Shown here piece after piece: positions 3,712 through 44,649 of a stretch of DNA of 64,000 nucleotides. The position numbers and the translations under genes were made by a program. This DNA comes from Chrysemys picta bellii (lineage: Eukaryota; Chordata; Testudines; Emydidae), in the NCBI RefSeq assembly GCF_011386835.1, contig NC_088795.1:17279441-17343440 (forward strand), read 5' to 3'. Positions within the stretch are counted from its first letter, which is position 1; every line of letters begins with the position of its first letter. The notes under the pieces are model-generated. The model searched no databases and had not been told where the DNA came from. It saw only the letters and a program-made list of their open reading frames with translations.

Positions 3712-4000
3712 AAAACAATGAAGAGTCTTTGTGGCACCTTAGAGACTAACACATTTATCTGGGCATAAGCTTTCGTGGGCTAGAACCCACTTCATCAGAT
3801 GCATGGAGTGGAAAATACAGTAGAGAGGTATAAATACACTGATGGGAGTTGCCTTACCAAGTTGGGGGGTCAGTGCTAACAAACCAATTCAGTGGGCTAT
3901 TCTCAATAGTTGACAAGAAGGGAGGAAAAATCACTTTTGTAGTGATAATGAGTTCAGTGTAATCAAGGTGGCCCATTTCAAACAGTTGACAAGTTGCTAA
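3712..4000 (-). mobile_element. Penelope-like element 3' UTR/3' end, 5'-truncated
   Basis: Read on the minus strand this is the non-coding 3' region of a Penelope-like retroelement. It begins with a spacer containing 'ttggtaaggcaactccca', then a pyrimidine-rich AT stretch, then 'atgcatctgatgaagtggg', 'cccacgaaagcttatgc' and 'gttagtctctaaggtgcca', stopping at about 3712. The spacer matches the plus-strand PLE at 52500-52686 ('ggtaagacaactcccacc'), which ties it to a copy with RT and GIY-YIG coding sequence. The last ~40 nt found in other copies (gcggatacagactaacacgg and onward) are missing, and no coding part remains. The 5' boundary near 4000 is approximate and I found no target duplication. 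Confidence 0.75.
3761..3798 (-). ncRNA. Hammerhead-ribozyme-like motif of the PLE 3' end (decayed)
   Basis: On the minus strand there is a CTGATGA box (3792-3798), a GTGGG/CCCAC stem II, a GAAA box (3771-3774) and a two-pair GC/GC stem III around TTAT (3763-3770). This is the order of a type I hammerhead with a minimal stem III, a motif published for PLEs. The dinucleotide expected as UH at the cleavage site reads CC here, and I could not find a convincing stem I, so activity is doubtful. Confidence 0.45.
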
Positions 4001-4345: not shown

Positions 4346-4593
4346 ATAACTGTGTTTACAACAGAGGGTCCTGTGGCACCTTTGAGACTAACAGAAGTAC
4401 TGGGAGCATAAGCTTTCGTGGGTAAGAACCTCACTTCTTCAGATGCAAGACTTGCATCTGAAGAAGTGAGGTTCTTACCCACGAAAGCTTATGCTCCCAG
4501 TACTTCTGTTAGTCTCAAAGGTGCCACAGGACCCTCTGTTGCGTTTTACAGATTCAGACTAACACGGCTACCCCTCTGATAACTGTGTTTACA
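4346..4593. mobile_element. Fold-back PLE insertion with 15-bp target duplication
   Basis: The insert at 4361-4578 is flanked by the direct repeat ataactgtgtttaca (4346-4360 and 4579-4593). By eye, positions 4361-4539 form a perfect palindrome: two 89-bp arms around a single central base at 4450. The right arm reads as a PLE 3' end (gcatctgaagaagtgagg, acccacgaaagcttatgc, tgttagtctcaaaggtgcc) and continues to the element terminus (cagactaacacggctac) at 4540-4578. The left arm is the inverted copy and lacks that terminus. One duplication around the whole structure means the palindrome integrated as a unit and was not made by two insertions. No coding sequence is present. The hairpin may hinder cloning and assembly. 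Confidence 0.85.
4458..4496 (+). ncRNA. Hammerhead-like motif in the fold-back PLE
   Basis: CTGAAGA (4458-4464), an imperfect stem II, GAAA (4483-4486), a GC-TTAT-GC stem III (4487-4494) and a UC cleavage dinucleotide (4495-4496) follow the hammerhead order. The inverted arm carries the same motif on the minus strand at 4404-4442. The motif starts only eight bases from the palindrome centre. Stem I pairing is not convincing, so this is a motif call and not a claim of activity. Confidence 0.45.
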
Positions 4594-37663: not shown

Positions 37664-37902
37664 TTGATTATGTGACAGGTTTCAGAGTAGCAGCCGTGTT
37701 AGTCTGTATCCGCAAAAAGAAGAACAGGAGTATTGTGGCACCTTAGAGACTAACAAATTTATTAGAGCATAAGCTTTCGTGGACTACAGCCCACTTCTTC
37801 GGATGCATCCGAAGAAGTGGGCTGTAGTCCACGAAAGCTTATGCTCTAATAAATTTGTTAGTCTCTAAGGTGCCACAAGTACTCCTGTTCTTGATTATGT
37901 GA
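37664..37902. mobile_element. Fold-back PLE insertion with 12-bp target duplication
   Basis: The insert at 37676-37890 is flanked by ttgattatgtga (37664-37675 and 37891-37902). Positions 37720-37805 and 37806-37892 are reverse complements (86 and 87 bp, one single-base indel) meeting at ggatgcatcc (37801-37810). The left side continues to the PLE terminus (gtttcagagtagcagccgtg and gttagtctgtatccgc, 37679-37715). The right, inverted copy stops short of it. The element is thus minus-oriented with an extra inverted copy at its 5' side. The insertion lies in the ancient MITE at 37588-38081. Confidence 0.88.
37809..37846 (+). ncRNA. Hammerhead-like motif in the second fold-back PLE
   Basis: CCGAAGA (37809-37815; a C replaces the U of CUGANGA), an imperfect stem II (gtggg/tccac), GAAA (37833-37836), GC-TTAT-GC (37837-37844) and TC (37845-37846). 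The inverted arm has the same motif on the minus strand. The change in the first box predicts loss of activity. Confidence 0.4.
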
Positions 37903-41368: not shown

Positions 41369-44025
41369 GTGTGCTTGGAACAGTTACAGTATATAGCAGA
41401 GGATGGGTCTGTCTTTGAATATCTTTTTACTTTTTGAATTTCTTGATGATGTGTGTGTGACAGTATTTTGAGGGGGGCAGGTAGGTTATTTGTAGGATTA
41501 TGTGGGGGCAGGTATGGTATTTGTAGGATTAATAGAAGAAATTAGTTATGTGGAGGGACTTTTAATCAACTATAGAATTTTAACATTTGAAACAGATAGA
41601 ACCATCTGTAAAACATGTACGTGAAAATCTTCATGGAAGAATGGATCAGTTCAGGTTACATTTTGAGCATTACCCTATATCCAGATACTGGCATGCACAG
41701 TTACTTGTTTAGGTCACCAATTTGGTTTCAATTTACTGTGAAAGAAATCTCTGCGATAACATTTTCCATCATAATGATTTTGACATTGATTTTACAGTTT
41801 CGTTTTGGTCCATTACAAACTGTACTTCAATCATTCATCAGATAGTTAGACCTATGCACTGAGTTTAGGCCCTGTGCACTTAAATTAGATTCCCACTTGC
41901 GATCTTCATGTGGAAATGATGGAACTGTTTCCGTTATGACCTCAAGAACAATGATACAGTTCAGCTAAGGGAAGTCACGCAAAGAAAAGGGAAAATACCA
42001 AACTTCCAACTTCCTTAGAGTTGGACTCCAACTCCATTAGTTGACTTGTACATTACTCATTGCTAAACAATCTTAAAACCCCAAAAGGATTTAACATGTG
42101 ATTTGGATTACACACCCATACAAGGGAGTACCAAGCAGTAAGAGCCATCCTTCTGCCCCTATTCTACCCAGATCTTTCATCCTGGCACACAGGAGTAGGT
42201 TGGGGCACTTGCCTGTGTACTTCCTCCCTGGAGCGTGTGGGTGGGGAGTAGGTAGAGAAGGGCTACGAAGAATGGGTGCAGCTTTGATTTCACCCCATCT
42301 GGTTGACCAGTGCAGCTGAGCCAACAAGAGAGATGTTGTAATTTGTTGCTGATGTTGCTGGTATGAAGATATAGAGTTAAGATTGTGTGTTGCCCTTTAA
42401 AGCTACATAAAATACACCTATATCCTTGTATTGTATTTAAGTGTGGAACTCAAGAATTTCACATGGAAGATTCCAATACTAGTCAACTCTGTTCCTGTAT
42501 CCCTGCTCATCTTCCACCTACAGATTGGAGACCCTCACCTGTTGCCAAGCTAAACTGAAGCCTGCCCTTTTAGCCTGCATGCATAAGGTCCTCAAAGGTT
42601 TCTGTTATGTATGTAAATGGTGTTGACTCAGATTATGAGCAAATCCTTATGTCTTTGTGATCTGGGCCTTATGTTGTTAAAGACTATCATATTTGTCAGC
42701 ACACAGTGAGCAGCTGATAGTCAGACGCCTGCTGCTGGTGGAACATGGACACACGTTGTGTGAGCGGCATAGCAAGGCTTGACTTGTTACTTGATAAGTG
42801 ACTTGTAGAATGAGGGAAGCGGGGGCAGGAAGGAACTGTTTGTTGGGCACTGCCCAGGGTGCAAGGAGACTACCAAGTATAAGGCCAGCACACATATTAG
42901 TTTCCCTGTCCCTTCAGAAGGTAAAAGAGCAGGAATAAATCTATCACGTTTTCACGGGCCTATCATTCGAAAACAACATAGTCTTTGTTCTTCACTCTTT
43001 CCAAAACCTGCTCTTCTGGTCTGAAACTGAGCATGAGAATTTTCAAAAATCAGACTTAGAATGGGAGAACTGGTCACAACTTTAATTATGCAGCTGTCAC
43101 CCATGGAGCTATATTCATAAGGGGTTTTGTATTTGTCTATAACACTAGGTTAGAACGTGCCTTAATCCTGGATCTTCTCTCTGCCGTTTTTGATACTGAA
43201 CAAAATAACCTTCTTCTGTCTAAAGCTTCCTGATTTCTCCCACACTTACAGGGTAGTGGGTGATGATAATTCAAGTTAGACAGGGAGCAGAGCATCATTT
43301 CTTCAACTGGGTTTATAAGACACTTATAAGACACTTTGTTAACTGAATGTTACCCAGAAAAGTATAATAGTTTGACTCAAGCCGCCAGTTCTACTATTCT
43401 TTTCTCTAATGGTCTATGTCTGTGTTTCTCCATTTTGTTATTAAATGTATTTCAAAGGAAAGTCTAAGTGTAATATTTCTTTGTAGGTAATGTTGCTTTA
43501 AATTTTGTGTCTCTAACCATGGATTTGATGCTGATAGTCAACCTTATCTTTTCAATTTCTCTTGAAAAATTCATGCATGGTTAATACAGGTAGCTAAAAG
43601 GAAATCCCCAGGCTTATATTTGAACTGCATGTAACATTTACTGTGGGTCCGTACTTAAAAACGCTCTGGCGCACAAGTAAATTCTTGATCAAGAGCCACA
43701 CTTAACTCGGTTTCAAAATAAAATAATAAGGGAAATAAAGACATCTCTCTGTAGATGTTTATTCTTTCATGAATTTGAGAAAAATAACTTGATTATACAC
43801 TGTGCCAAGGTTGGCTATTGTGCTACTTATTTAAAAAATAACATAATTTAATCTAATGGGAATATGCACATAATACTATGGATGCTTGGTAGTGACTCCA
43901 AAGTTAGGTTTACATTCTAAAATGGGCTTAAAACGGGGCATACATTCCTGTTTCTCTCTAAAATGATTTAGCCTATTGGTGTGAAATGTCACCCAATGTT
44001 AGCTTGTCTGCCCTTTGCATTTTCT
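41369..44025. other. Non-coding DNA, no feature recognised
   Basis: Short open frames only, no nameable repeat. Confidence 0.55.
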
Positions 44026-44070
44026 CTGTTCTTTTTGTGGATACAGACTAACATAGCTGCTACTCTGAAC
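44026..44070 (+). mobile_element. PLE 3'-terminal remnant, about 45 bp
   Basis: 'ctgttctttttgtggataca' followed by 'gactaacatagctgctactctgaac' is the last 45 nt of the PLE 3' end seen in inverse orientation at 37676-37719. It is an extreme 5' truncation, or what remains after deletion. Flanking 'tctctgtt'-like strings make a target duplication ambiguous. Confidence 0.65.
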
Positions 44071-44649
44071 TCTGTTTCTCTGTAGCCTATATCATCAATA
44101 TTTTAAGGAGAAATTTTGTTCAGTCTCTCTCCTTACACTTTTAATAGGAAGTCTTTGAATCTGAGCTCTGGCTGATATAGCACCACTTAAATTAGTTGCA
44201 ATCTACAGAATTGCCTAAATTAAGAGCAACAAACTATATAAAGTTTTCACCTTTTATAAATATGTAATGATGTGACTGGCTGGATCATTACTTAGGAGCT
44301 TGGGGTGGTGATTCTAACTAGACTCAGGGAGTACGGTTTTGAACTCTGAATTTGGAACCAAGTTAAGATTGCAAGTGATAGGATATAAACATTTATTATT
44401 GTTAATAAAGTTGTAGATTTGTAATGCAAAGAAGCATGAAGCTTCTAAACTAGATGTTAGGCAACTATTTTTGGAAGCACTGTGTATGTAAAATATGTAA
44501 ATATTCCTGGTGTGTGTGTAACTGAAAACCTGTCTTCAAGCATATATGCCATGGTGCCATAGAAGAACATCGTAATGTTTAATTCCAATTTAGAGAGACA
44601 AGATGAGTGAGGTAATATGTTTTATAGGACCAACCTCTGTTGGTGAGAT

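Follow-up and report, generated by a model that had tools for sequence, protein, structure and literature searches.

Comparison of many genomic copies of one Penelope-like element (PLE) suggests that its insertion very probably proceeds from both sides of the target, in that the target would be cut with a stagger, each of the two 3' ends would prime reverse transcription and the resulting cDNAs would be joined head to head. The copy of departure is a tight fold-back at positions 37664–37902 of the window, i.e. of the whole stretch of 64,000 nucleotides of Chrysemys picta bellii DNA that was analysed. This object is an ordinary PLE insertion with an architecture that is already known; what is unusual is the mechanism to which the copies jointly point. 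With its thousands of short natural insertions, this one genome amounts to a recorded experiment, in which two cDNAs can be separated from self-copying, and the numerical rule emerging from them, one start site per DNA end, provides a yardstick for the purified enzyme.

The fold-back is enclosed by the 12-nt target site duplication ttgattatgtga, which occurs exactly twice in the window, starting at 37664 (left copy, 37664–37675) and at 37891 (right copy, 37891–37902). Next to the left copy lies the tail (37676–37719, minus strand), defined by comparison across copies as the terminal part of the long arm that is missing from the other arm, with the outer start site at its outer edge. It is followed by the part of the long, tailed arm that is common to the short arm (37720–37805, 86 nt, minus strand), in which a hammerhead-like core CCGAAGA...CACGAAA is recognizable by eye, Rfam assigning no hammerhead, and by the short, tail-less inverted arm (37806–37892, 87 nt, plus strand), which ends at the inner start site in a T-run and overlaps the duplication with its last 2 nt. 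The arms meet between ggatg and catcc in the centre ggatgcatcc (37801–37810), and this centre region recurs in loci L054, L055, L106 and L133. A sequence-only reading of the window had described arms of 86 and 87 bp around ggatgcatcc and a 12-bp duplication, which we confirm to the base. On the minus strand, one copy of the duplication is followed by the short inverted arm, ggatgcatcc, the long arm, the tail with its ending CTGAAACCTG and the other copy of the duplication. The arms are perfectly complementary over 73 nt with a spacer of 0, after which a 1-nt indel follows. For comparison, the longest perfect hairpin arm measured 8–10 nt in ten shuffles of the window (spacer 0–3) and 10 nt in the real window minus both of its fold-backs. 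Single-strand folding of the fold-back gave z = -27; Rfam miRNA matches to the hairpins stayed below the gathering score and were taken as hairpin look-alikes. With d denoting the distance upstream of the last C of GAAACC, the window copy comprises the 3' unit only of the PLE: both arms stop at a distance of some 130 nt from the outer site, and the inner end falls into the common zone at d126–134 described below.

The second fold-back of the window (4346–4593, plus strand) has a like architecture and belongs to another PLE subfamily. It consists of a 15-nt repeat (4346–4360), a short arm (4361–4449), a long tailed arm (4451–4578) and the other 15-nt repeat (4579–4593), the hairpin arms spanning 4359–4449 and 4451–4541. 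Being different in sequence and opposite in orientation, it is the independent insertion that it had been proposed to be, and the further observation that the extra inverted arm stops before the terminal part holds for both window copies, whose inverted arms are without the endings ctctgaaacctg and cccctctga. In this subfamily an opposite-strand partner was present in 18 of 40 scored loci. The partner ends lay at q93–103 of 130 in ten cases, at q61 in one and at q46–47 in seven, and q130 was reached by none; the seven partners at q46–47 are uninformative, as the window copy is among them though its arm really continues. Since ten further genomic loci are identical to the unit at 4452–4581 across all 130 nt (eleven with itself), the subfamily looks recently active. 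Two smaller PLE pieces were seen in the window. On the minus strand at 3729–3805 lies a single arm of an older subfamily, whose core CTGATGA...CACGAAA is by eye nearer to the canonical hammerhead than that of the younger copies, Rfam giving no hammerhead match there, and positions 44021–44082 hold a very short tail-only fragment (44029–44069), flanked on either side by a possible 8-nt repeat TTTCTCTG that was likewise noted by eye.

Judged from its relatives, the element at 37664–37902 is an endonuclease-bearing PLE, because in longer sister copies the unit is preceded upstream by an open frame with GIY-YIG and reverse transcriptase-like sequence; its initial recognition as PLE sequence was borne out in this way. 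In one such copy, L042, the sequence ahead of this 3' unit was scored: GIY-YIG reached 26.5 bits (Pfam cut-off 22.6) and RVT_1 25.2 bits, the latter under its cut-off of 29.6 and in a partial frame. The 2.37-Gb assembly contains 4711 + 4770 occurrences of the exact 41-nt tail and 9328 + 9458 of the exact 56-nt core, with 0 for the reversed control of each. The pLTR arrangement is inverted in 70 of 100 tail-anchored sites and tandem in L027. At positions 1081–2051 of this locus we found a tandem array of PLE units with a 228-nt period and a fold-back at its end, in which element sequence past the tail (TGTCATTATGCAAGG...) is joined to about d136. On the minus strand of L027 (1175–1405) the RNA fold shows GUUAGUCU and AGACUAAC in a pairing that spans the inner start site; as a whole this RNA folds no better than shuffles (z = -0.32). 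Hammerhead ribozymes share the core motif CYGANGA...GAAA, and by eye a core of this kind with a tiny stem III is discernible in the pLTR; Rfam reported no hammerhead in the window at gathering score and none in two stretches at E up to 1.

For the census, exact tails were taken in order from the start of contig C1 up to a total of 100 (L039–L138), with 1 kb upstream of each. A head-to-head inverted arm was found for 70 of them and none was detected for 23, while 5 ran off the locus and 2 internal sites (L043, L058), which continue into the element, were dropped. In 64 fold-backs the second arm could be read to its outer end, which lay at d29–53, at d36 in 42 of them, and the tail was present in 0 of 64; for the other 6 of the 70 neither outer end nor duplication was testable, the outer end being outside the locus. 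A target duplication (score at least 8) accompanied 61 of the 64 fold-backs vs 19 of 1280 mispaired flanks, with a length mode of 12–13 nt and a middle composition of 74% A+T. Because the duplications tend to start with T.T (46 and 32 of 61) and to end with A.A (34 and 32 of 61), the two cut strands would end alike. The two primers thus look alike, and part of the T start and A end may stem from matches to the bases that come next in the element itself. L045 and L047 represent one insertion with near-identical flanks, about 90 kb apart on C1, and hence a segmental duplication. Re-reading of the 23 armless rows yielded 3 fold-backs (L120, L121, L135), 8 single arms with a duplication (L066, L080, L081, L082, L093, L098, L113, L132) and 12 rows assigned to neither class. 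Two-ended insertion is consequently not obligatory, since a duplication can accompany a single arm, as in these 8 of 23 rows.

A second set (L139–L158) was assembled blind to the tail and comprises 20 of the 24 head-to-head exact-core pairs less than 1 kb apart, among the matches listed. All 20 fold-backs carry one tailed end (d0–2) and one tail-less end (d27–46), the tail amounting to about 36 nt. L148, L152, L156 and L158 are common to this set and the census; for the 16 others, which are independent of it, one of each by independent ends at p = 0.5 has a probability of 1.5e-5. Direct repeats with a score of at least 10 were present at the ends of 19 of the 20 and absent in L143. When the whole fold-back served as query, an opposite-strand match was obtained in 40 of 40 scored loci, starting at query positions 54–84, with the outer end of the tail at 29; this set of 40 loci is biased, as the query itself is one-tailed.

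The arms are not nested. In 50 of the 70 census fold-backs their inner ends lie more than 5 nt apart, the tail-less arm reaching further in 35 and the tailed arm in 15 (p = 0.0066); with the 16 additional pairs (8, 4 and 4 equal) the tail-less arm reaches further in 43 vs 19 of 62 unequal pairs (p = 0.003). Among the 61 copies that have a duplication, there are 18 in which it extends inward beyond its partner by more than 20 nt. For example, the tail-less arm covers d36–745 in L068 and d36–401 in L130, the corresponding tailed arms d0–43 and d0–62, and the duplication is present in both. Each of the two arms here holds sequence missing from the other and a self-copy must sit inside its template, so that two reverse transcriptions are needed: 35 of the 70 fold-backs contain two independent cDNAs.

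This result bears directly on self-priming, which has been suggested for rotifer Penelope (PMC3846280) and in which a 3' end, either that of an antisense template or that of the first cDNA, would fold back and prime its own copying, giving a head-to-head palindrome. It is excluded for the 35 fold-backs with a further-reaching tail-less arm and a tail only on the other one, L068 and L130 among them, and could apply to some of the other 35, whose tailed arm is as long or longer. The junctions hold features that such a process would leave, namely recurrent palindromic centres (GGATGCATCC and CTAACAAATTTGTTAG) and overlaps of at least 10 nt at 12.9% of the 70 junctions vs 3.5–5.0% in simulated joins. 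The excess is restricted to the longer overlaps, those of up to 4 nt being like simulated random joins (0.214 vs 0.185–0.203), and 31% of the junctions contain extra bases. Microhomology as a general joining rule is not supported by these short overlaps and added bases. As the source of the fold-backs at large we regard self-priming as unlikely.

Inner ends are also informative with respect to the template. Among the 82 inner ends at d45–160, taken from the unequal fold-backs and 23 'solo' rows, 24 fall at d126–134 (p = 8e-9 vs uniform), downstream of the TATATATAT box; one might guess at a transcription start in this zone, which would explain the many insertions of about 130 nt. RNA cut by the hammerhead was rejected as the usual template, with 1 of 82 inner ends at d82–86 (predicted cut d84). 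An apparent group of six copies with inner ends at d84–85 contains only one, L096, that reaches the hammerhead cut, the others centring on AAATTT.

The two arms of one insertion agree on a 3-nt (TTC) indel in 50 of 52 scorable pairs, with L046 and L052 discordant, 12 of 64 pairs unscorable, and L045 and L047 both counted though they are one duplicated locus. At four variable sites, one of them CpG-like and one (d81) possibly distorted by the palindrome, the arms agree in 155 of 167 comparisons (L047 left out), vs a mean of 0.776 and a maximum of 0.841 in 1000 shuffles; the minor variants occurred in both arms 14 times and in one arm only 10 times. Furthermore, own arms differ by 1.8% and by 3.3% from those of other copies (n = 39). 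Between the arms the difference is 1.7%, close to the 1.35% that private variants would lead one to expect, although only 32 of 54 differences involve such a variant. Because the arms mostly share source variants, their two templates thus came from one source, be it as a single molecule or as a pair. Shared variants do not prove that the arms were read from one RNA, and a single RNA molecule behind both cDNAs is the more speculative version.

In the two-ended mechanism that we propose, the GIY-YIG PLE would cut an AT-rich target on both strands, the two cuts lying about 12–13 nt apart, as inferred from the duplications; this stagger would leave 3' overhangs, because both 3' ends keep the duplicated bases. 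Both target 3' ends would then prime inside PLE RNA, one primer starting at the outer site between GAAACC and UG and the other at the inner site, which is U-rich and lies about 36 nt upstream of the outer one in the RNA, with each start site used once per two-armed insertion. Each cDNA would stop at its own point, the two would presumably be joined head to head, and fill-in would leave the target duplication. The tight fold-back is best read as the short limit of ordinary PLE integration, because centres scatter and the arms lie anywhere between 0 and about 1 kb apart, with a stretch between them that can contain element sequence. A tentative extension, which we consider possible but would not bet on, is that PLE integration is normally two-ended and that two polymerases within one complex follow each other along the same RNA molecule. 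A leader would start from the inner site on one strand and a follower, about 36 nt behind, from the outer site on the other strand. If true, this would explain the single tail per fold-back, the shared variants and the longer tail-less (leader) cDNA. Against the two-ended mechanism in general stands the longer tailed arm in 15 of 70, which is also obtainable by self-copying.

Fixed tail-less outer ends with independent inner ends would equally result if cDNA synthesis begun on sense RNA continued, after a jump between templates, on an antisense PLE RNA starting at about d36, and bidirectional PLE transcription has been proposed (PMC3846280). This route does not require the similar A.A primer ends at both sides, the spread of the tail-less ends over d27–53 is broad for a transcription start, and the Anolis PLE extends both target strands (PMC11167929), so that we give the jump little credence. 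The sequence-only reading had envisaged a possible non-autonomous class of fold-back PLEs. Such elements would multiply as fold-backs from a master copy, and the recurring junctions, six copies at (85,85) and four at (130,130), might be ascribed to them. With 56 junction classes among the 70 fold-backs and arms up to about 1 kb apart such a class is highly improbable, and the recurring centres lie in self-complementary sequence and can arise repeatedly. The scatter of centres thereby speaks against a separate class; the outer end points, which the same proposal had named for comparison, are fixed across copies, and its view that the repeated design reflects a mechanism stands. A hairpin DNA transposon with terminal inverted repeats would show an inverted repeat and a target duplication, but can practically be dismissed in view of the unequal ends (20 of 20 in the tail-blind set), duplication lengths varying around 12–13 and the reverse transcriptase and GIY-YIG sequence in longer copies.

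The two-ended reading invites comparison with LINE-1 twin priming, in which both target strands prime on the element RNA, giving an inversion and a target duplication. In LINE-1 it is another part of the element that becomes inverted, whereas here one and the same stretch is present twice. For PLEs themselves, inverted pLTRs, one-arm tails and duplications are already known, and inverted pLTRs and 3' extensions are mentioned in PMC8969392. Neither the one-of-each rule nor the nesting argument for two cDNAs was found in the PLE literature searched; older Penelope work lay outside that search, and an earlier statement is possible. The protein of Poseidon PAc from Anolis carolinensis cuts and extends both strands at AT-rich sites, and two adjacent internal start sites bound its tail (PMC11167929). 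Its hammerhead lies upstream of these sites with a cut-to-start distance of about 85–92 nt, compared with 84 nt by motif here. Start sites on top and bottom strand were not different in vitro, a finding that does not predict the one-of-each rule; the account calls the later PLE integration steps unvalidated, and in the portion considered here neither head-to-head products nor their origin from two cDNAs are discussed (PMC11167929). In the PLEs of Adineta vaga, too, inverted pLTRs of which one arm is tailed occur together with duplications and with palindromes at the junctions (PMC3846280). As presented there, however, Adineta vaga Penelope elements such as Pen2a_Av have few copies, usually with an ORF between the arms, and were read as self-priming, whereas the turtle genome holds thousands of mostly short copies that follow the one-of-each rule and have non-nested arms.
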